Source: a virus
Length of the DNA: 63,102 nucleotides
Virus record (IMG/VR): IMGVR_UViG_3300031952_000016
Span: 1 to 63,102 of that record
Direction: 5' to 3' (one strand)
Below, piece by piece: positions 22,805 through 62,368 of the stretch. The translations under genes and the position numbers were made by a program. The notes beneath the pieces were generated by a model. It was given only the letters and a program-made list of their open reading frames with translations. It was not told where the DNA came from and searched no databases. Numbering within the stretch: the stretch's first letter is position 1; each line of letters begins with the position of its first letter.

Positions 22805-23632
22805 TTAAGGAAAACTTTTCATTACGTTAGATTCCGCTACAAACAACTCGATTTTACTGTTAAAAGCATTTTCAAGTGTAAATGTACAATAATGCCCCAA
22901 AACTCCGTGCGATTCTGCAACTGAATTTTTAATATATAAAAAGTAATTTGTATCAGTCGGAATTGGCGTTGTAGCAGGTGTAAGCATATTGTTGTTGATT
23001 ACAATTTGATTTATACCTGAAGGATAGTCTACGTTTACATCTGTAACAGGTCCTGCAAAAACAGGATTATTACCTGATAAAAAGTAAACATAATCTCCTA
23101 CACTTATGATATTCCCTATTGCTACAAGAGGAGATATGCTAAAGTTTATTACTGCACTGTTAGTACCTTTTCCTGTAACAGTTGTGCTACTACCTATACC
23201 ATTAACACTTCTAAGAGCAAGTTGTCCTAGTGAGGTATTTCTTACAAAAGCAAAGTACGAAGCTTCTTTTCTATCAAACCAATTCCCGTCTATAAACCCT
23301 GAGTATTGCAAGTCAGTTTCTAAAGTAACTCCCCAAGGAGCATCTCCTTCTAAGCTAATGGTCTTAAATAGCTTGTTCTCAATAGGAGAGGTATTAAATA
23401 CACTTTGAAGTCTTGAAGGAGTAAATGCATTTGGAGAAGGCACTATGTCGTCTTTTAAATCCCACCACGGTTGATAGAATGTATTACGAATTTCATTTAC
23501 ATTATGTCTGTAAAGATTTCCTCCTTTGAAGGTATAGAAAAAATTGTTCATTCCAATCATCCAATCAGGTTGATAAGAGTAAAAAGATACCCAACCGGCA
23601 ACTCCTTCGCTATATGATAATGTGTAATTCAT
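22805..23632 (-). CDS. Tail or hub-associated virion protein, unknown
   Basis: A 275-residue beta-rich protein that begins MNYTLSYSEGVAGWVSFYSYQP. It follows the 1687-residue tail-hub gene by 2 bases. Placement and aromatic-rich beta character suggest a tail tip or fibre-attachment subunit. I recognise no family with certainty. Confidence 0.55.
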   Translation of the reverse strand: MNYTLSYSEGVAGWVSFYSYQPDWMIGMNNFFYTFKGGNLYRHNVNEIRNTFYQPWWDLKDDIVPSPNAFTPSRLQSVFNTSPIENKLFKTISLEGDAPWGVTLETDLQYSGFIDGNWFDRKEASYFAFVRNTSLGQLALRSVNGIGSSTTVTGKGTNSAVINFSISPLVAIGNIISVGDYVYFLSGNNPVFAGPVTDVNVDYPSGINQIVINNNMLTPATTPIPTDTNYFLYIKNSVAESHGVLGHYCTFTLENAFNSKIELFVAESNVMKSFP

Positions 23633-23634
23633 AA

Positions 23635-26600
23635 TTATAATTCAGTTGGTAAACAAACTCGTATAGCATCCCATCCTGTACCTACACTGCCTGTTATTCT
23701 TATATTAACTTCATTAGATGCTATATAATCTGCAGCACTATATATCCACCAAATTCTTTGTTGGTAATCAGTTGTAAGAGGTAAGGTCGTTATTCCTGTA
23801 GCAGCTGTAAATTGAGTCATTCTAGTTGGAACAGTTCCTTTATCGGTCCCTATAAATTGGTCTGTTGCATTAGCTTGCAATACAGTAGGAACAACATCGG
23901 AAGGTCTAGTTCCGTAGTCATTATCAAAAGGACCTGAATTATTAGCAGCGGTCATACTACTTGTTGATTTCTTGATATACGAAGTACCTACCTTATGTAT
24001 TATCTCTAACTTATCAGGCACTGCAGCAGGTTTGAAATCAAATATAATAACACCTCCTGAAGGATTGTCTAAAATAACAGTAAGGTCATATATACCTGTT
24101 TCTCCTTCAGTTTCAACAGGCACGCCACAAGGCACTCCACAAGTAGGACAATTTTGTTTAGGTAGTAATACTCCATCTACAAGTTGTCTTACAATACCTC
24201 CTAATGAATAGAATCCATTTGCTGCAAATACAGTTAAATCGCTATTAGTAAATATTGATGTAGCCGTAGCGAACGGAGCGTTTAAATAGTAATTATCATC
24301 CGTACAATCACAACAAGCATCTTCTTTACTTGTAAGTGCGTAACATAATTCAGTAAAAAGAGACGTTCTTAAATCCCATAATAAATAAAGATATTCTCCA
24401 TCTACAACATCAGGAGTTATAAAGCTTGAGTAATACAAAGGAGAGCTACCTAAAATTGGAGTAGCTGTTATTGATTCATTGATTAAATCTTGAATCTCAA
24501 TACTATTGTTTTCATATAAAACAGAGCTTCTAAGGTATCTAAATTTATTTTTCTCAGGATTAAATACAAAGTCATCAGGGTTTATTCTGTTTGTAGACAA
24601 TATCATCGTGCTTCCTGCAGGAGGATAAGCTCCTTGACCTGCAAATCCTGAAGAAATATTGTACCTAGACACTAATGGAGTTTCTGTTCCACTATCGAAT
24701 AAAACAAGATTAGATAATAATGGACCTATAAAATTATCATTAGTATATCTATACTGAGTATGTATTGTTTTCCCTGAATCTGCGTTATCTGTTAAGACAA
24801 CTTCCACAATTTTTACCTCTTCAGAAATAGGACAATCAGATGTTACAGAAACAACCATATCTCCTTTATATGTTATTGTTATTTCTGCAGTACTAACAGA
24901 TATATTATTTTTGTTAAAAGATATAGTTCCATTTGAAGCAGTTTCTATAGAATCTACAACTACTCCATTATAGTTTACGCTTATCTGTATAGAGGCTCCT
25001 TCTTGAATACTTGTAAATACCCAATTTATATCTGAAATTCCTACAATAGCTCCTAAATTAACGCAGTATATCTCTTGTTTTTCTTCTATCAAGTCTTCTG
25101 ATGATAAAGTAAATGTTTGACTAATACCACATCCTATACATTGAGGGGTTGATGGTAATGGTTGGTCATTCATAGATAGTACATACTCGTTCATATAAGG
25201 GTCGTAACCTCCTAGTTTTTGATAATTGAACGAAGAGTTAAATTCATCTCTAAACCAAGTTCTCATATTTTGATTAGAGATAGCTACCAATTCTTCATTC
25301 TGAGTATCTCCTCCTTTTAATTGGAGAACAACTCCACGTTTTACATCTGTAAAGAACCTATCAAATCCCCATTGAACATAACTTTCAGGATTGAAACTAA
25401 TACCATACTTTTCAGTACGTGCTATTTGCGTTCCTAAGACCTCAGGAGTGGCTGTAATTATACCTCCGGCACTTGCATCAGACAATAAATTTTTCTCCGC
25501 TAAAACGTAAGATATTTTATCTTCTTGTAAAACCAACACATCTGTATTTCTTGCATCTAAAAGTTGTATCTCTCCGAATGAAGACTCGCATTTTTTAAAG
25601 TTTAATAGTCCTGAGTTAAATTGGTTTAATCTATTAATATTTGATTCATTATTATAAACTCCACTATATGTTATATCTGACATTCTGTGAGCTTTTTTAT
25701 AATCTTGAGCTGAAACAGTAGTTACTCTTTCTCCTAGATTGAAACTTCTTCCAACTATTGAGTCTCTAATTTTATAGCTTTCTGCTCCGTTACCAAAAGC
25801 AAAGCAGTTAAAAAATTCAGTATCTACAACACCGTTTATCCCTGCGCTTATATCTTGATTCGTAACATTACCTAAGTGGTTTCCATCTTCATCAATAGCG
25901 AACGACAATTCATTTTCAAAGAAAATATCAGGTAAAGCATCTTGAGGTTCTGTCTCAAAAATAATTGTATTTAAAGCTCTTAGTATCTGAATAGTAACAT
26001 TTAAACGATACTCTCTACGGCTAGGTCTTGAGAATCCTCTACACGCTTTACCTATTGTCAACTGAAGTATTGTTTCGTTTGTTATATCGTCAGTATAAAA
26101 CTGAAGATATTGTGGACCAAAACTCTCTATATCTAGTATTCCTTTTGTAGGAATATATACCAAACTAGTTACATCATCCTTTGGCGTTCCTGTACTTAAT
26201 AAAGCACCTATGTTATCGCCATTCCACCAATCTTCAAAACTATCATAATCAGCAGAAGATTGAATCTCTCTTTGAAATAAATACCCTAGAGGGTCGCATT
26301 TTCTTCCTGAAAAACCTGCTCTATTCCAATTAAAATCTAAAGTGATTATACTTCCTGCAGGAATTGAGTAGTCTTTATACTCCCAAAAAGGGTGTAAATC
26401 GTCAAAACCTGCTCCTTTAAATTCATTAACGCCATACTTCATCATTCCGTAATTACCATCAAAAGTATAATCGTATTCGGCTCCAAGATTTACAAAAGCA
26501 TCAGGAGCTACAACTGCTAAAAAACTATTTGGGTTTATCTTAACGTATAGACCTGCAGGAGGAGTTATATCTCCAATAACAGTAATATCTCCTGATGCTT

Positions 26601-28698
26601 TTGCTTCTTTTGCTAAGATAGTTGCATAAGCACAATTTTGTCTAGGACCACCTGTATCTGCTTTAACAATTAACCTATCTCCTGTTTCTACTTTTCTAAT
26701 ATTTTCTCCTTCTAAATAAAACCAATTCTCGTTGGTTTCAGAATCTGTAAAAAATAAATTACAGTAGATTGTTTCGTAATTCTCTTCATCAGGTTTGATG
26801 ACAAACTTATATCTCTTTGCAAATTTAGGAGCCACTTGGCTAAAAGGTATAGTTACTCTAATACCGTTTTTAGTATCAGAATCATCGCACGAAGTAAATA
26901 CTGCATTGTTTTGACTTACCAAAGCGGTTGTAGACCTATTAAATTCATCCATATAAACAATGCCTATCTCATAACCTCTATTACTGTGTAGGCTTTTTGG
27001 ATTTCCTATTTCTTGAAAAACAGCACTAGAAAAAAGAACTTTGTAATACTCATATATAGTTACCGTAGGAGTTACAATGTCATCTACATATTTTGCTGCA
27101 CATAATTGTAATCCTATTTCAGTACTTGCCGGAGTAGTAACAATTCTTATTGGTTGATTAATTGCATCTATACCACTTTCTACTTTTATTAATAAATCTA
27201 AGGCACTAGGAATATTACAATTTACTCTGTCAGTAAAAGTAATCCCATCGCAAGCAGTAGCCATAGGCTCTATATTTGTAACACTTCCAACAACATCTTG
27301 AAATTCTACGCTAGTGGCTAGTTCATAAACAGAAGAGTAATTTCTATTTAAAAAGAAATCAAATGTAACTTGTGTGTCTCCTGTTTCTTGTGTAGGCTCA
27401 GGAGTTCCTGAAAATCTATCGTGAGTAAAAGTAAAATCTAAATTAATAAAAGCACCCTTTACAAGGTTTAATCCTACTAAATCAATATACACTATAGAAT
27501 CAGGTATAGTTAATGCTGTATCTATAGTGTAGTTTCCACTTCCTGTTCTATCAGTAACTGCGGATTCTCCTATATCTTCTGATATTATTTCAGGTCTATA
27601 TTCAATTTTTGTAGCATATCCAAATTTATCAATTAAATCATACCCTTCTACATAGTTCCCGTACATTAATCTATTACCCATAATCGTTTGAGCTTTAGCT
27701 ATTAATGGTACGTTATCGTATAATCTCAATATCTCAGCCTCAGTTAATATAGTAAAAATCTTACTGTTGTTAAATGAAAAACTTTGTATGCTGTTATCAG
27801 AAAAGCCTGCTTCTTTCTTATCTATTTTTTGTATGACTTTTATTATATTATTGTTTGCTTGCTTAAAAAGTAAGTCAATTCCTACAACAAGAGGTCCTCC
27901 TGTATTGTATTTAACAATAGCTGCGTTGAAAAAATTACTCATCCCTTCATTTAGCATACTATTTACGCTAAACTGAAATGAATTAGGAGCAAACGCAGGT
28001 GCTGACCATTGTGATGTAGCTGAATACTCTCCATCTTCATATTTATATCTATAAGCAAAACATATAAATCTAGTATCTAAGTAATTCTCTTGACCACTCG
28101 TGGTTATAGGAGTTACTTCAGGAGACTCTGTAGGCGGTTTCTTTATAACGAGAATTGCTTCAGGATTTAATACGTCAATATCTCCAACAGGATTAGGATA
28201 ATTTTTATCTATGTTTATAAAACGAGGAGGATTATAATTATCAGTCCAAAACAAAAGATTATCAATTAAATTGATTCCTGTAATAAGATAAGAAGGATTA
28301 AAATTTAATGTAGTATCTACTCCATCTCCATTATCTATACTGATAACGTGATACGTTAGTATATCTGTAAGCACGTTGTAAGACACAACTAAATCAAGTT
28401 TCCCTGTGTCTCCAACAGTAAATTCAGGGTCGTGAACAAACCAATATACTGTTTCGTTAGCACTATCTTCAACAGCACCAATGCATCTTGCATTTATACT
28501 TAATGGAGTTCCATCTAAATAGGTCAATATGGTTAATGATGAATTTCCTTTAGTGTTAGTAATAACGCCTACTTCTGATTTTTCAGTAGACCCCATTCTA
28601 ATATTCATAGCATCGACATATTCTCCATCAGGAAGTAGTCGTTGGTCTACGACTTTGTTCATTCTTCCTGCTATAAAATTCCTTGTTACTTTTGCCAT
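23635..28698 (-). CDS. Tail hub/stabilisation (muzzle-like) protein
   Basis: The 1687-residue protein opens with NFIAGRMNKVVDQRLLPDG and EYVDAMNIRMGS, the N-terminal block typical of crAss-like phage stabilisation proteins, which are compared to P22 gp10. Most of the rest is beta-rich, with a cysteine-rich stretch near residues 1450-1530 (CCDCTDD, CPTCGVPCG). It follows the two ring protein genes, as in short-tailed Bacteroidota phages, and would close the tail tube. Length is large for the family, so extra receptor-facing domains are likely. Confidence 0.7.
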   Translation of the reverse strand: MAKVTRNFIAGRMNKVVDQRLLPDGEYVDAMNIRMGSTEKSEVGVITNTKGNSSLTILTYLDGTPLSINARCIGAVEDSANETVYWFVHDPEFTVGDTGKLDLVVSYNVLTDILTYHVISIDNGDGVDTTLNFNPSYLITGINLIDNLLFWTDNYNPPRFINIDKNYPNPVGDIDVLNPEAILVIKKPPTESPEVTPITTSGQENYLDTRFICFAYRYKYEDGEYSATSQWSAPAFAPNSFQFSVNSMLNEGMSNFFNAAIVKYNTGGPLVVGIDLLFKQANNNIIKVIQKIDKKEAGFSDNSIQSFSFNNSKIFTILTEAEILRLYDNVPLIAKAQTIMGNRLMYGNYVEGYDLIDKFGYATKIEYRPEIISEDIGESAVTDRTGSGNYTIDTALTIPDSIVYIDLVGLNLVKGAFINLDFTFTHDRFSGTPEPTQETGDTQVTFDFFLNRNYSSVYELATSVEFQDVVGSVTNIEPMATACDGITFTDRVNCNIPSALDLLIKVESGIDAINQPIRIVTTPASTEIGLQLCAAKYVDDIVTPTVTIYEYYKVLFSSAVFQEIGNPKSLHSNRGYEIGIVYMDEFNRSTTALVSQNNAVFTSCDDSDTKNGIRVTIPFSQVAPKFAKRYKFVIKPDEENYETIYCNLFFTDSETNENWFYLEGENIRKVETGDRLIVKADTGGPRQNCAYATILAKEAKASGDITVIGDITPPAGLYVKINPNSFLAVVAPDAFVNLGAEYDYTFDGNYGMMKYGVNEFKGAGFDDLHPFWEYKDYSIPAGSIITLDFNWNRAGFSGRKCDPLGYLFQREIQSSADYDSFEDWWNGDNIGALLSTGTPKDDVTSLVYIPTKGILDIESFGPQYLQFYTDDITNETILQLTIGKACRGFSRPSRREYRLNVTIQILRALNTIIFETEPQDALPDIFFENELSFAIDEDGNHLGNVTNQDISAGINGVVDTEFFNCFAFGNGAESYKIRDSIVGRSFNLGERVTTVSAQDYKKAHRMSDITYSGVYNNESNINRLNQFNSGLLNFKKCESSFGEIQLLDARNTDVLVLQEDKISYVLAEKNLLSDASAGGIITATPEVLGTQIARTEKYGISFNPESYVQWGFDRFFTDVKRGVVLQLKGGDTQNEELVAISNQNMRTWFRDEFNSSFNYQKLGGYDPYMNEYVLSMNDQPLPSTPQCIGCGISQTFTLSSEDLIEEKQEIYCVNLGAIVGISDINWVFTSIQEGASIQISVNYNGVVVDSIETASNGTISFNKNNISVSTAEITITYKGDMVVSVTSDCPISEEVKIVEVVLTDNADSGKTIHTQYRYTNDNFIGPLLSNLVLFDSGTETPLVSRYNISSGFAGQGAYPPAGSTMILSTNRINPDDFVFNPEKNKFRYLRSSVLYENNSIEIQDLINESITATPILGSSPLYYSSFITPDVVDGEYLYLLWDLRTSLFTELCYALTSKEDACCDCTDDNYYLNAPFATATSIFTNSDLTVFAANGFYSLGGIVRQLVDGVLLPKQNCPTCGVPCGVPVETEGETGIYDLTVILDNPSGGVIIFDFKPAAVPDKLEIIHKVGTSYIKKSTSSMTAANNSGPFDNDYGTRPSDVVPTVLQANATDQFIGTDKGTVPTRMTQFTAATGITTLPLTTDYQQRIWWIYSAADYIASNEVNIRITGSVGTGWDAIRVCLPTEL

Positions 28699-46980: not shown

Positions 46981-47481
46981 TTATATTTTTGGATAAACAA
47001 TTCCATTATCAACAATAGTAACGCCCCTGTCTACTCTTTGTTTTAAAACTTTCCAATCAAATCCGAAGTCCATCTGAAAATGCGGAGCGTCTTTAAAGCT
47101 TTTCCAATCGCCTCCCCATTCCCATCCTTTTGATTTAAAATAGTCAGTTACTTCTTTCCAATCAGCAATACTGTCTTTATCAAAGTCTTTAACTTGCGAC
47201 CAACTTGCTTCTTCAAATGTACCATTACCATCATTGTCATATAGCATTACAATATCAAATGCCAATCCATAATTATGAATTGATTGACCGCCTTTAGCAT
47301 TGGTAACTTTAGGGCGTTGGTTATATAGCTTATCTTGTAGCGCATTACTTCTGTAAACGTAAGCAAAACGCAATCTTGCTCCTTTACCAAGCAAGTTATT
47401 AGCTTCTTGATACTGCTGTAAAAGCATACTCCTAAGTTTAGGATGCGCTTCTTTTATTCTATCAAGTGTTATTTGGTCCAT
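46981..47481 (-). CDS. Endolysin, peptidase M15-type (VanY-like)
   Basis: The 166-residue product carries the zinc-peptidase motif SIHNYGLAFD (H69, D76) and the downstream WEWGGDW and APHFQ (H134), the M15 signature of L-Ala-D-Glu or D-Ala-D-Ala peptidases. No signal peptide is seen, so export depends on the holin whose gene it touches at 47481. It degrades peptidoglycan cross-links at lysis. Confidence 0.85.
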   Translation of the reverse strand: MDQITLDRIKEAHPKLRSMLLQQYQEANNLLGKGARLRFAYVYRSNALQDKLYNQRPKVTNAKGGQSIHNYGLAFDIVMLYDNDGNGTFEEASWSQVKDFDKDSIADWKEVTDYFKSKGWEWGGDWKSFKDAPHFQMDFGFDWKVLKQRVDRGVTIVDNGIVYPKI

Positions 47482-47912
47482 TACGTTAATTCATCAATGT
47501 TATTTTTAACTTCTTTTGCTCTAAGAAATACTTTCTTGAGTAGTTTCCAAATATCAATATTAAAACTCTCTTCAATGTTTTCTTTTATAGATACCAACTC
47601 TACAAAAATCAATAGTATAGCACATATTTTTGTGAACATATATGTTATTCCAAAAGCCCTGATTACAAACTCATTTAAAGCATATTTGTCAATCGCAAAA
47701 AGAAATAATATACAAAGTTCGTATAATGCCATTTTTGATATTATGTTCGATAATATTCTACTTCTAATACTGCTTACTCCCTTTAGTTTTATGGTTTTAA
47801 AAATACCTGTTAGAGTATCAAGAAAAATAGCGGCTCCAACCGCTATTAACAACCCATATATGGGTACAAATAATAGTATCAAAGATGATGCTATATAATT
47901 TAAGTATTTCAT
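47481..47912 (-). CDS. Holin
   Basis: A 143-residue protein with three to four membrane segments (YIASSLILLFVPIYGLLIAV, then AIFLDTLTGIF, and a pair near 70-105). It has the DTLTGIFK motif typical of the Bacteroidota/Firmicutes phage holin family 4-like group. Its first base overlaps the previous stop (TAATG), and its stop touches the endolysin start. Confidence 0.75.
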   Translation of the reverse strand: MKYLNYIASSLILLFVPIYGLLIAVGAAIFLDTLTGIFKTIKLKGVSSIRSRILSNIISKMALYELCILFLFAIDKYALNEFVIRAFGITYMFTKICAILLIFVELVSIKENIEESFNIDIWKLLKKVFLRAKEVKNNIDELT

Positions 47913-52946: not shown

Positions 52947-54554
52947 TTACTCGTTTGATTGTTCGTAGCTTCTCGCCATTGTGATTATCGCATCTGTGCT
53001 TAGGATTGTTACCGCTACACTCACTGCGTTTTGCAATGCTGAACGGGTTACTTTCAACGGGTCTATTACTCCCATTTTTACCAAGTCTCCAAACTCTCTT
53101 GTTTTTAGATTGTACCCGTGACCCTGAGCTACACCATCTGAATAGATGTCTGATGCTCTTAGTCCTGCGTTAGCAAGTATCTGTAAGAACGGAGCCATAA
53201 GTGCTACGCTTAAAATATTTATTGCCGCATTGTACTCCTCACTCTTGTTATCGTCTAAATGTAACGCTGCACTCTCCTCAAGTAATGCTTTCCCTGCTCC
53301 GGGCACGATACCTTCCTCTAGTGCTGACCTTACCGCACATACCGCATCATCAACTCTATCAAATAACTCTTTCTGCTCTAGGTCTGTCTGACCTCCTACG
53401 AATATCACTCCGATACCTCCTGTAAGGGAAGCGATACGCTCTAAGATAAAGTCTTTCTCGTGTTTCTTAGTTGCGTTCTTATGCGCATCCCACAACTGAG
53501 ACACTCTTTCGTCAATTGCTTTTTGGTCTAACCTCAAGTCTGACTTGATGATAACAGTTTTGTCCTTGCTCACAATTATCTTAGCTGCGTGCCCTAGGTC
53601 TCCAAAGTTGATGATACTCAAATCATCTCCCGTTTTCTCGCTGAAGTAAGTCGCTCCAACGCTAATGGCAATGTCATACATCAACTCGTGTTGCTTGTAC
53701 CCAAAACTAGGTGGTGCAACTGCACATACCTTGATGTTCCCCTTTACAACATTTGCCGCCAAACTATTGATTAGGTTCTGACCACAAGGAGATATTATCA
53801 ATAACTTTTTACCCTCACTAACAATTGGCTTAAGCACGTTCTCAATCTGAAGGATATTAGTAATCTCCATATCAGCAACCAACACCATAACATCCTCAAA
53901 TATGCACTCATCTTTTTTCTGCTCGTTTATAAACATCGGACTCAAATACCCTCTGTCAAATTTCAACCCTAAAGTGGTCTCCGCATACGTCTCGTCAGTC
54001 TGACTTTTCTCCACCGTTACAATACCGGTCTTACCAACATCTTTGTACACCTCAGAGATTATCTTCCCTATCTCTCTATCGTTGTTTGCAGATATGCTCG
54101 CTACATCCACCAACATAGAGCTAGTAACTCTCTTGCTCTTTTTGCGCAACCTATCCACCACCTTGTCGCTTATCTCCACCATACTCCTTAAGACCTCAGT
54201 CCTGTTTAGATTTGGCGTAATATGCTCAAGTCCTCCCAATACCAACCCCTCTGTAAGCACAATAGCCGTAGTGGTCCCATCTCCTGCGGCAGTAGCGGTA
54301 CGCTCAGCAGCCTCCTTCATCATCTTAACCGCAAGGTTCTCCGAAGGGTCTAACAAGTCAATAGCCTTAGCCACTGTTACACCATCTTTAGTAACCGTGA
54401 TGCCGTGAGTGTGTGTAGGGCTCTCTATCAAGACCGGATTACCTCCCGGACCTAACGTAGCTTTTACAGCTTTTGACATCTTTACCACTCCATTTACTAA
54501 TTTTTTCCTTCCTGTGTCCCCAAAACACAAATCTTTAGGCGAATACTCTAGCAT
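52947..54554 (-). CDS. groEL: GroEL-like chaperonin
   Basis: The 535-residue product is a full-length chaperonin: VKATLGPGGNPVLIE, AGDGTTTA (about 91-98, ATP site), the apical region with TNILQIENVLKPI, and the C-terminal ATP-site block AVRSALEEGIVPGAGKALLE. It ends ARSYEQSNE, without the GGM tail of host GroEL. GC-richer codons than the flanks suggest a separate history. It probably folds the capsid or other large virion proteins with the phage GroES. Confidence 0.9.
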   Translation of the reverse strand: MLEYSPKDLCFGDTGRKKLVNGVVKMSKAVKATLGPGGNPVLIESPTHTHGITVTKDGVTVAKAIDLLDPSENLAVKMMKEAAERTATAAGDGTTTAIVLTEGLVLGGLEHITPNLNRTEVLRSMVEISDKVVDRLRKKSKRVTSSMLVDVASISANNDREIGKIISEVYKDVGKTGIVTVEKSQTDETYAETTLGLKFDRGYLSPMFINEQKKDECIFEDVMVLVADMEITNILQIENVLKPIVSEGKKLLIISPCGQNLINSLAANVVKGNIKVCAVAPPSFGYKQHELMYDIAISVGATYFSEKTGDDLSIINFGDLGHAAKIIVSKDKTVIIKSDLRLDQKAIDERVSQLWDAHKNATKKHEKDFILERIASLTGGIGVIFVGGQTDLEQKELFDRVDDAVCAVRSALEEGIVPGAGKALLEESAALHLDDNKSEEYNAAINILSVALMAPFLQILANAGLRASDIYSDGVAQGHGYNLKTREFGDLVKMGVIDPLKVTRSALQNAVSVAVTILSTDAIITMARSYEQSNE

Positions 54555-56823: not shown

Positions 56824-57006
56824 ATGAGAACACGAATGAACACAAAGGTTGATGTTACAAATGTAATACAACAAATTGAGATTGAGATTAGAGCCTATTC
56901 AAAAGCGGTACGTACTATAATGCTACTTAAGAAGGTGGAGTACAAGGACGCAAAAAGAATTTTGGAAATGAGATTAACTGAACGTTTAATATTTAAAACA
57001 GCATAA
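56824..57006 (+). CDS. Small paralogue with RLTERL motif, copy 1
   Basis: A 60-residue helical protein with VEYKDAKRILEMRLTERLIF. The gene at 57644 shares this block almost fully. It is the first gene after the tRNA-like fold, 21 bases on. Function unknown. Confidence 0.65.
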   Translation: MRTRMNTKVDVTNVIQQIEIEIRAYSKAVRTIMLLKKVEYKDAKRILEMRLTERLIFKTA

Positions 57007-57643: not shown

Positions 57644-57814
57644 ATGAATGACAACCAAGAATTAGCAAGCGCTATTCAACAAATCGACTATGAGTTTAAT
57701 GCGTACTGTAATGCAATCAGAACAGTAATGAAATTAGACAACGTAAAGTACAAGGATGCAAAGGCTATCCTAGACAGAAGACTAACCGAACGTTTACTAT
57801 TTAAAAAAGCATAG
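57644..57814 (+). CDS. Small paralogue with RLTERL motif, copy 2
   Basis: A 56-residue protein with IQQIDYEFNAYCNAIRTVMK and VKYKDAKAILDRRLTERLLF, matching copy 1 at 56824. It follows the 97-residue gene by 3 bases and precedes the next gene by 2. The two copies flank three unrelated genes, so the duplication is not strictly tandem. Confidence 0.6.
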   Translation: MNDNQELASAIQQIDYEFNAYCNAIRTVMKLDNVKYKDAKAILDRRLTERLLFKKA

Positions 57815-58842: not shown

Positions 58843-59052
58843 ATGACAAACATTATACATTATTCAGACCAAGAACTTAGCTTATTGTTTCTAAACGATG
58901 AGGTATTGTACAAAGAATTGATGAGAGCAGTTAGAAGAACTGACTTTACCATTGTAAAGGAACTGTGTGATGAGTTATTCATATACACTGAAGACCAATT
59001 AGAAGATTTGGCAGACACATTTAACGATGAATTAATAGAGTACGAACTATAA
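58843..59052 (+). CDS. Small acidic helical protein
   Basis: A 69-residue acidic protein (HYSDQELSLLFLNDEVLYKE, then EDQLEDLADTFNDELIEYE). It lies 26 bases before the amidoligase gene and may be part of its operon, perhaps as a substrate or adaptor. That is inference from position. Confidence 0.55.
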   Translation: MTNIIHYSDQELSLLFLNDEVLYKELMRAVRRTDFTIVKELCDELFIYTEDQLEDLADTFNDELIEYEL

Positions 59053-59078
59053 TAATTATTAACTAAACAATTAACATT

Positions 59079-60284
59079 ATGAGATTATCAGTATTAAGAA
59101 CGCTTTACGAAGTGTTCAACGATGACAGAGAGAAAGTACAACGTGCAATCTCTAGTTTAGAAAATGGGGATGTATCTATCCAAGAGATAGAGTCCGGAGA
59201 ATACTTCTCCCACGAAGATGGCTACTATTCCTGTGAGGACTATGTAACTACCGAAAATGGAGATGTACTACATAGAGACGATGCTTTCTATTGTAATGGC
59301 TATGAAGAGTATTATCACGAGGATGATATGGTAACTGTGTACGAGGATGGAGACACGAACTATTACAGCCGACAATGGATAGAGAACAGGACTGATGACT
59401 ATGCTTTTTATGAGGGCGAGTGGTATGACAACAGTGCACAACAAAGATACTGTCTTGTGTGGGCACAAGATATGAACCAATTAATCCACGAGGACTGTGC
59501 GTACTACCACGATGGAGATGGTTGGTACTCGTATGAGCCTGACGAGACTGAGGAGTATGTTCGTGGCTATCACAATGGTAGCTATCAGTCCATTAACTTT
59601 GACAACAAGTCTAAGTATCGTATCGGCTACGAGATTGAGAAGGAGGACTCAGAGGTATTGGAGAGTATCAACATCCAAGACTTCGAGAGTAATACTGATT
59701 ACAAGTGGCGTAAAGAAAAAGATGGCTCTCTCGATGATGATTCAGGCTATGAACTTATCAGTCCTACCTTTGAGTTTAACATCGACAAGATATTTGAGCA
59801 TATTGAGAGTAATGATGTATTAGTAGAGCATATCAATGCAAAGTACAGTACAAGTTGTGGTGGACACATTCATCTATCAGAGAAGAACCTTAATGGAGAG
59901 CAGTTGTTCGAGAAGATTAAAGGGTACACACCTCTGTTGTATGCCTTGTACTACGGCAGGGTAGACAAGAACTTCTGCAAAGGTAAAGCCAATAAAGACC
60001 TAGCCTATGAGAATGAGAAGTATCAGGCTATCAAGATACACCACGATAGGGTAGAGTTTCGTATCATCAGTGCGGTTATCAATGTTAAGACTCTCAAGTG
60101 GAGAACAAAGTTATTGATGATGATTTTGCAGAACCCTACCCACGATGTCATCAGAGCGTACTACAACGTGGATACTAAGTTCACAAAGTTACTCAAGCAG
60201 ACTTATACAGACAGCAAGTTAGTTGACTTGAAGGAACGCTTTATAAAATTTACAAAACAATTTGAAGGAATAGATATTAAATAA
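59079..60284 (+). CDS. Amidoligase-family enzyme
   Basis: The 401-residue product has an N-terminal part with repeated Y/C/D-rich hairpins (SCEDYVTTENGDVLHRDDAF, YCNGYEEYYHEDDMV), which look like LIM-like or treble-clef-like modules. From about residue 185 it is amidoligase-like: YRIGYEIEKE, DGSLDDDSGYELISP and SCGGHIHLS (H262-H264 region) form the metal and ATP-binding strands of a glutamine-synthetase-like fold. Such phage enzymes are predicted to form peptide-like bonds on proteins. A glutamine amidotransferase gene follows. Confidence 0.75.
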   Translation: MRLSVLRTLYEVFNDDREKVQRAISSLENGDVSIQEIESGEYFSHEDGYYSCEDYVTTENGDVLHRDDAFYCNGYEEYYHEDDMVTVYEDGDTNYYSRQWIENRTDDYAFYEGEWYDNSAQQRYCLVWAQDMNQLIHEDCAYYHDGDGWYSYEPDETEEYVRGYHNGSYQSINFDNKSKYRIGYEIEKEDSEVLESINIQDFESNTDYKWRKEKDGSLDDDSGYELISPTFEFNIDKIFEHIESNDVLVEHINAKYSTSCGGHIHLSEKNLNGEQLFEKIKGYTPLLYALYYGRVDKNFCKGKANKDLAYENEKYQAIKIHHDRVEFRIISAVINVKTLKWRTKLLMMILQNPTHDVIRAYYNVDTKFTKLLKQTYTDSKLVDLKERFIKFTKQFEGIDIK

Positions 60285-60303
60285 CAATTAAACAATTAAC
60301 ATT

Positions 60304-61113
60304 ATGTGCATAGCAATTTTAAACACGAAAAAAGCAGGTAGATTACCTAAGAATCAAATCAAAAACTCTTGGGATAACAATGATATGGGAGCAGGTCTCC
60401 TATGGAACAAAGACGGTAAGTTAAATGTATTCAAGTCGTATGACTATGATGACTACATAGACAAGTACAATGCCCTTAGAGATGACAATACCATCAACAG
60501 TATAGTGTTACATTTCAGGATAGCCACTAGTGGTTACAATGGAGAGCATAACCTTCATCCCTTTCTTGTCAATGACAACGTAGGATTTGTACACAACGGA
60601 GTCATTAGTGGACTAGGTAACAAGACCTTCTCAGACACGTATGAATTTAATGATATGCTTAAAAAGTTTAAGCACGATTTCTTATCTTGCGATATGAGTA
60701 AGTTCTTCATATCAGAGTACATAGGGTACAGCAAGCTAGTGTTCTTAGATAACAAAGACAAGCATACCATTATCAATGAGGAGTTAGGTAAGTGGTCCAA
60801 TGGTAATTGGTACTCCAATGATTCCTACAAAGAGTACAAGCCCTATGTTTATTATGGGAATCAAAAGGTTGCTAAGACGGATGTTGCAGGCAGTAAGACC
60901 TACCCTCACTATGATTACAGCAAAGATGCGTGGGATGATTTAGACGAGGGAATAGAGTATGACGAGTGGGATGTGTATGACTACCTATGTAGCGTGTACG
61001 GACTAAACCCTGAGGCAGACGATTCAATAGATGAGTTAGAGACGTATATGACGCTGAACAACGTAGACAACATCATAGATTTGTACAAAATCATAGGCGG
61101 GGAAATGGAATAA
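60304..61113 (+). CDS. Class II glutamine amidotransferase-like protein
   Basis: The 269-residue product starts MCIAIL, placing the catalytic cysteine at position 2, as in N-terminal nucleophile amidotransferases. LHFRIATSGY, then NLHPFL and GFVHNGVISG, are the glutamine-site blocks. It would release ammonia from glutamine, presumably for the amidoligase upstream. Its leader repeats 18 bases (TAAACAATTAACATTATG) found before the amidoligase gene. The C-terminal third is acidic and unique. Confidence 0.8.
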   Translation: MCIAILNTKKAGRLPKNQIKNSWDNNDMGAGLLWNKDGKLNVFKSYDYDDYIDKYNALRDDNTINSIVLHFRIATSGYNGEHNLHPFLVNDNVGFVHNGVISGLGNKTFSDTYEFNDMLKKFKHDFLSCDMSKFFISEYIGYSKLVFLDNKDKHTIINEELGKWSNGNWYSNDSYKEYKPYVYYGNQKVAKTDVAGSKTYPHYDYSKDAWDDLDEGIEYDEWDVYDYLCSVYGLNPEADDSIDELETYMTLNNVDNIIDLYKIIGGEME

Positions 61114-61852: not shown

Positions 61853-62368
61853 ATGAAAACAGTAAGAGAAAAAGTAATTGAACAGATTAGACTGCAGGAG
61901 AAAATGCAAAGTCTAGCAAAAGTAAACCTAGTTACTTGTGGTAATTGTGGTGCTACATTATTGCACGAGCTGAATGAAGAGCAAATTGACTGCTTTGCGT
62001 GTGGTAATATGATTGACCAATCAGACTGCCCGGACTATTGGTATAGTGGACTAGAGAACTCAGAAGAGTACAATAGAGAGGAGCCTACTCTTTATGGAAA
62101 GTTAATTGACATAGAGGTTAATGAAGCGGTAGAACTCAGCACTATCATCAAACAAGAAAACATTGAGAACGCAAAAAAACTACTTAAAAGTGAGGGCTAC
62201 TATATAGACAGCCTTTGGACGACAGATGACGTTACAGAGAACTACAATTGCACAGAGGAACAGGCTCAAGAGGTGCTTGATAGCGCATTAAATAACGAGG
62301 CAACTATGCAACAGATATGGGATGCCATCAAGTGTAGTGCAGAGGATTTAAAACTAAAAGAGATATGA
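61853..62368 (+). CDS. Protein with N-terminal zinc ribbon
   Basis: The 171-residue product has a four-cysteine ribbon, TCGNCG (about 29-34) and CFACG (about 47-51), and then an acidic, helical C-terminal part (ENIENAKKLLKSEGYYID, CTEEQAQEVL). It starts after the TTTAATCAAATG leader. Nucleic-acid or protein binding is likely; function unknown. It overlaps the next gene by ATGA. Confidence 0.65.
   Translation: MKTVREKVIEQIRLQEKMQSLAKVNLVTCGNCGATLLHELNEEQIDCFACGNMIDQSDCPDYWYSGLENSEEYNREEPTLYGKLIDIEVNEAVELSTIIKQENIENAKKLLKSEGYYIDSLWTTDDVTENYNCTEEQAQEVLDSALNNEATMQQIWDAIKCSAEDLKLKEI

Follow-up and report, generated by a model that had tools for sequence, protein, structure and literature searches.

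The closest described systems are the peptidoglycan-modification cassettes of the phages phiEco32, LUZ24/tf, and RIO-1/PSA-HP1 (Iyer 2009 and Hardies 2013, as cited in passages of PMC5498523 and PMC10580990). In those passages, both of which cite Iyer and colleagues for the peptidoglycan proposal, the same gene pair is proposed, as a hypothesis, to modify peptidoglycan against superinfection. Extracts from two further papers report the same kinds of genes in LUZ24-like phages (PMC3890496, PMC3517423), and an amidoligase with a GATase is reported in OM43 phages in the pertinent part of PMC10580990. The MurT/GatD system of Staphylococcus aureus, as outlined in part of PMC3267633, resembles the proposal made below in performing glutamine-dependent amidation with a ligase and a separate glutaminase; its ligase, as described there, differs in being Mur-ligase-like, and the system is not taken as homologous to the pair studied here. 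A search of mainly open-access literature returned no experimental study of an amidoligase/glutaminase pair, and its activity and target are given there only as hypotheses; a paper on Giles interactions deals with other proteins, and papers on jumbo phages and on lipocone do no more than cite Iyer 2009.

The window, the whole stretch of DNA that was analyzed, is a 63,102-base virus record with the cassette at its plus-strand end (Table 1). As in the published phage cassette, to the extent that the cited passages describe it, the genes for a GS-fold amidoligase and a class II glutamine amidotransferase occur together, within the early/replication portion of the genome. The published cassette also has GGCT and a second ligase, whereas neither gave a significant match in the six-frame open stretches of at least 40 aa in the window, and no ATP-grasp came up when proteins of the window, though not every small ORF, were compared with Pfam or PHROGs. 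The window ligase further differs from the published cassette in its long acidic N-terminal hairpin region. The OM43 phages MEP401 and MEP402 likewise carry an amidoligase and a GATase, as adjacent genes in MEP402, with a glutaminase 40% identical to that of the window, whereas their ligase has only about 17% overall identity and a different N-terminal region. The phage ctfjg026 (MW202828) and the GGCT-fused clade share the ligase core and the glutaminase with the window, and ctfjg026 has a GroEL nearby with 59% identity to the window GroEL; in contrast to the window, the glutaminase in this group is fused to a cyclotransferase and most members have a short ligase lacking the N-terminal region. 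The window pair is a reduced member of an already known phage amidoligase/amidotransferase cassette. That these genes are an amidoligase and a class II glutamine amidotransferase, as the first-pass annotation had proposed, was confirmed by profiles, predicted folds, and intact catalytic residues.

Table 1. Positions of the cassette features within the window and the basis of each assignment.
Feature	Position	Strand	Basis or remark
69-aa acidic protein	58843-59052	+	ORF; probably a separate small phage gene outside the system
18-base leader including ATG, ligase gene	59064-59081	+	Identical to the glutaminase leader
GS-fold amidoligase, 401 aa	59079-60284	+	phrog_7469 match, AlphaFold2 model, GS-type fold, conserved residues
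18-base leader including start codon, glutaminase gene	60289-60306	+	Identical to the ligase leader
Class II (N-terminal-Cys) glutaminase/amidotransferase, 269 aa	60304-61113	+	phrog_25883 match, model, conserved residues

By their coordinates, 26 bases separate the 69-aa ORF from the ligase and 19 bases separate the ligase from the glutaminase, and these short gaps suggest that the three ORFs form one transcription unit. The identical 18-base leader before the ligase and glutaminase genes, pointed out previously as shared by both, is exact within the window, but it does not stand as a special link between them, with none of 18 relatives having the same leader before both genes. The leaders of both genes are A-rich in those relatives, and at one related locus (L010) the leader of the window recurs, but only in front of the ligase. 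Because the leader is not common to both genes in the relatives and no Shine-Dalgarno-like motif was found within 20 bases of the start in any of the 31 window genes checked, it looks like the ordinary start context of this genome; its interpretation as a regulatory or duplication signature was rejected as a general one, as the identity does not recur in the relatives. Of the 15 nearest loci, 6 have a homolog of the 69-aa protein, with 27-696 bp between it and the ligase, and its cluster over all loci has 14 members, several of which are the same contig fetched twice. The suggestion that this protein might be the substrate is not supported, because of its presence in only these six loci at variable distance, and it was rejected as an obligate partner or substrate.

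Folds and active sites of the two enzymes

In the PHROG profile search the ligase matched phrog_7469, "amidoligase enzyme," over residues 178-288 (E 1.9e-5). Its score against Amidoligase_2 (PF12224) was 20.8 bits (E 4e-4), which does not reach the Pfam cut-off of 22, and the protein is therefore filed as a GS-fold phage amidoligase rather than as a formal Pfam member; 12 of 42 aligned ligase relatives matched Amidoligase_2 at E ≤ 0.1, the best at 3.2e-7. The ligase profile gave no meaningful match to the sequences of solved structures. The AlphaFold2 model of the ligase, built with an alignment of 42 proteins, has a mean pLDDT of 93.3, and structure searches with it mostly covered residues 175-386. 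Over this range the model matched glutamine synthetase (Z 9.5, rmsd 3.8, 175 aligned) and YbdK (Z 9.2, rmsd 3.6, 185 aligned), with GmaS also among the matches, and Foldseek returned Dop and PafA more weakly. Amidoligases of crAss-like and Cellulophaga phages are among the structural neighbors as well. The catalytic core of the ligase, at about residues 175-386, has the glutamine-synthetase fold in the predicted structure. The conserved motifs are G183xE185xE187, D215xS217, G223xE225, G261xH263, R294, and E326xR328. In an alignment of 145 homologs, with gapped rows set aside for each column, E185 and E187 are invariant (132/132 each), as are E225 (142/142), H263 (143/143), E326, and R328 (141/141 each), and D215 (142/143) and R294 (138/141) are nearly so; H265 is variable (66/143). 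By these conserved columns the ligase has a GS-type active-site set of acidic, His, and Arg residues, presumably equivalent in kind to the Mg2+- and ATP-binding positions of glutamine synthetase.

The glutaminase, of 269 aa, belongs to the class II glutamine amidotransferases as a divergent member. It matched phrog_25883 (E 4.4e-9, PHROG profile search) and scored 17.9 bits against GATase_6 and 13.8 bits against GATase_4, reaching neither Pfam cut-off (27 and 23, respectively), and 39 of 40 aligned glutaminase relatives matched GATase_4 at E ≤ 0.1 (best 7.9e-11). Alignment to Amidoligase_2 and GATase_6-type profiles had been suggested as a check of the pair, and both scored under their Pfam cut-offs; the matches obtained were with the two PHROG families. 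The glutaminase model, from an alignment of 40 proteins, has a pLDDT of 86.4 and consists of an Ntn domain at about residues 2-177 followed by an acidic C-terminal tail. Residues 2-177 matched EgtC (Z 14.0, rmsd 2.9, 161 aligned) and the glutaminase domain of GlmS (Z 13.8), and the predicted structures settle the folds of both the ligase and the glutaminase. Among 139 aligned homologs, with gaps set aside, C2 (129/129), R72 (136/136), N98 and G99 (138/138), and D111 (137/137) are invariant in the scored sequences, as are H70 and G77, and H97 is less constant (111/138). We take C2, R72, N98, G99, and D111 to be the residues that in class II enzymes supply the nucleophile and the oxyanion hole and bind glutamine. 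The Ntn fold, the N-terminal Cys, and the HxRxxT/NG/Asp set are all present in the glutaminase, as judged from the model and the conserved columns. Missing catalytic residues, which would have spoken against the first-pass annotation, are not the case here, both proteins having full sets.

The N-terminal region of the ligase, at about residues 40-160, is predicted with high confidence to form successive β-hairpins with short helices, and it varies in length and make-up from phage to phage. Its earlier description as a repeated Y/C/D-rich region was accurate for Y and for D/E, the 131 residues from 30 to 160 containing 20 Y and 36 D+E together with 4 K+R, but only 4 residues in this stretch are C and the repeat is weak, with 37 of 500 shuffles scoring equally high in self-similarity. 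Reading of the window ligase's N-terminal sequence revealed no CxxC metal ligands, and related ligases at 10 loci (L117, L119, L126, L127, L129, L140, and L168-L171) have at least six CxxC pairs at the N-terminus. In a search of BFVD viral structures with the ligase model, the third match was a phage protein with the name "LIM domain containing." These CxxC relatives and the LIM-named neighbor raise the idea of a degenerate zinc-ribbon array at the ligase N-terminus, yet the tests of sequence homology were not significant and it stands as an idea only. A zinc-ribbon HMM scored as high against 77 of 100 shuffles as against the window region, and profile-profile comparison of this region with the zinc-ribbon arrays of related ligases gave a probability of 0.8%, which is not significant. 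With Cys masked, 1 of 100 shuffles reached the window score, a result that was mixed across 42 family rows.

Pairing of the two genes in related loci

The ligase was found upstream in all 15 of the nearest viral loci retrieved by the glutaminase alone. In locus L015, an ORF that by eye resembles a GIY-YIG endonuclease lies between the two genes. A profile-based set comprised 80 loci found via the ligase and 79 via the glutaminase, with near-copies included in the counts and with profiles built from genomes having both genes; both were present in 74/80 and 73/79 of these loci, respectively, and the ligase stands directly before the glutaminase (<150 bp) in 68/80 and 42/79. In four of the six loci without a glutaminase the ligase ORF runs to the contig end (L037, L062, L081, L091), in L069 the contig ends about 160 bases past the ligase, and in L080 the ligase is at the very start and no glutaminase was found in the next 5.8 kb. 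Three of the six loci without a ligase have the glutaminase less than 600 bases from the contig end (L115, L125, L149), and in the other three (L124, L130, L152) no ligase was detected in the roughly 1.9 to 5 kb upstream. The gene order is reversed in L118. The ligase-glutaminase pairing is strong, far beyond chance.

A second clade has a short ligase that is mostly parted by small genes from a glutaminase-cyclotransferase fusion with a Cys-rich end. The GGACT domain was found in 2 of the 40 members scanned in the glutaminase alignment (best E 5.2e-23), and a GGCT fusion was called by motif in 24 of 114 untruncated non-redundant pairs, ctfjg026 included. By the same motif call, these 114 pairs divide into 89 with a long ligase and no GGCT, 23 with a short ligase and GGCT, and 2 exceptions. 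On the 114-row tree the short-ligase type requires three label changes and falls mainly in one clade, with bootstrap values not settled and many long branches. A functional exchange between the N-terminal region and GGCT was considered, but the short/GGCT type is essentially one event on the tree and so gives no evidence of it. In L132 (6001-7092) and L154 (5962-7119), the glutaminase, the cyclotransferase, and a C-terminal Cys-rich stretch are joined in a single protein, and a short ligase is encoded upstream of it. Two ligases per locus occur in 11 of 121 non-redundant pairs. Pairs are also present in bacterial genomes, for example those of Nocardia and Saccharopolyspora, where the ligases have CxxC arrays; two Nocardia contigs (L168, L171) have two such CxxC-array ligases per locus, with glutaminase ORFs nearby.

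Proposed reaction and alternative explanations

The leading reading, to which we give about an even chance, is that the two genes encode a two-subunit, glutamine-dependent amide ligase, for which we infer coupling of the subunits and the use of ammonia as the nucleophile. In such a reaction, removal of Met1 would allow Cys2 of the glutaminase to act as the nucleophile that splits glutamine, and ammonia would be delivered to the ligase. The GS-fold ligase, with ATP and Mg2+, would activate an acceptor carboxylate as an acyl phosphate, which would react with ammonia so that the amide is released. The acidic N-terminal hairpin region of the ligase is probably where either the acceptor or the partner subunit binds. 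The leading candidate for the acceptor is a cell-wall precursor, of which the D-glutamate or diaminopimelate carboxylates of the peptidoglycan stem peptide may be altered during infection, and the purpose could be, for example, to hinder competing phages. This cell-wall target and anti-competitor purpose are guided by published proposals and are put forward tentatively; since the window is without GGCT and a second ligase, and an ATP-grasp was not seen among its scanned proteins, the idea of a cell-wall target is borrowed from cassettes that have more genes. An M15-type peptidase, a probable endolysin (46984-47481, minus strand), adjoins a holin (47484-47912, minus strand), in that listed order, so that the window phage's own lysis may act on the same stem peptides, which is no more than suggestive. 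We know of no characterized amidotransferase in which a class II glutaminase is combined with a GS-fold partner, and GatD is a class I glutaminase. Stated in full, the candidate system would be a two-subunit amidotransferase of crAss-like phages infecting Bacteroidota, with a GS-fold ligase as its synthetase and a separate class II glutaminase supplying it. A region descended from a zinc-ribbon array, but free of metal, would direct the ligase to a macromolecule, and the host wall or a host protein would be amidated; in this form the proposal is possible but rather doubtful.

The ammonia-coupled model is opposed by the closest structural match of the glutaminase, EgtC, being a hydrolase; EgtC hydrolyses a gamma-glutamyl amide and does not feed ammonia to a ligase. 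In the ergothioneine route the GCS-type ligase is EgtA and the hydrolase is EgtC, and an analogous gamma-glutamyl chemistry could operate here, with the ligase coupling glutamate, or a different amino acid, to a peptide or small molecule, and with a gamma-glutamyl hydrolase, the Ntn enzyme, taking the glutamate off again. The top rank of EgtC (Z 14.0), tied with GlmS (13.8), and the gamma-glutamylamine cyclotransferase (GGACT) domain fused to the sister-clade enzyme, detected at a best E of 5.2e-23, argue for this chemistry, which is nevertheless unlikely, with no cyclotransferase detectable in the window and no acceptor-biosynthesis gene among the window proteins scanned. Alternatively, the ligase could modify a host or phage protein that its N-terminal hairpin array recruits, joining ammonia, an amino acid, or a peptide to carboxylates of the side chains or of the C-terminus. 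Such protein modification is consistent with the core fold shared with PafA and Dop, both of which act on protein side chains. The N-terminal region also differs in length and make-up between phages, as an acceptor-binding part would, and one structural neighbor, a phage protein, is named "LIM domain containing"; there is, however, no conserved small acidic neighbor, the 69-aa protein being found in 6/15 nearest loci, and we regard this explanation as unlikely too.

The same N-terminal region bears on modification of phage DNA or nucleotides, in which an amide on a carboxylated base would shield the genome from restriction. Base hypermodification in phages does include steps of the amidotransferase type, but the acidic composition of this region (36 D+E versus 4 K+R, residues 30-160) is unfavorable for nucleic acid binding and no base-modification enzyme was named among the window proteins scanned, so that this explanation appears highly improbable. 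For the glutamine-dependent amide ligase, the window offers a convenient system for finding the substrate. The amidoligase/amidotransferase pair recurs in many phage lineages, and the two-gene version of the window is about its smallest form, with two proteins, complete active sites, and clear catalytic mutants. Should peptidoglycan prove to be the target, the phage wall-editing idea could be tested directly; otherwise, a new phage modification would be revealed.

Genome context

CrAss-like muzzle domains were found in the window at 22808-23632 (minus strand; PF25729, E 3.8e-12) and 23638-28698 (minus strand; PF25731, E 7.3e-13), which suggests a crAss-related podovirus whose genome is about 63 kb. 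The crAss-type muzzle domains, together with the starts devoid of Shine-Dalgarno motifs, suggest a host among the Bacteroidota. A full-length phage GroEL is encoded at 52950-54554 (minus strand), and 42 of the related loci that were clustered contribute members to its cluster. A multi-copy small-protein family is found near the cassette (L005, L010, and others) as a cluster of 87 ORFs in 43 loci, and the window ORF at 61853-62368 looks related to it, membership for the window having been judged from overlapping positions. Two neighboring small genes, of 60 aa (56824-57006, plus strand) and 56 aa (57644-57814, plus strand), are paralog-like, and in related loci they share their matching ORFs.
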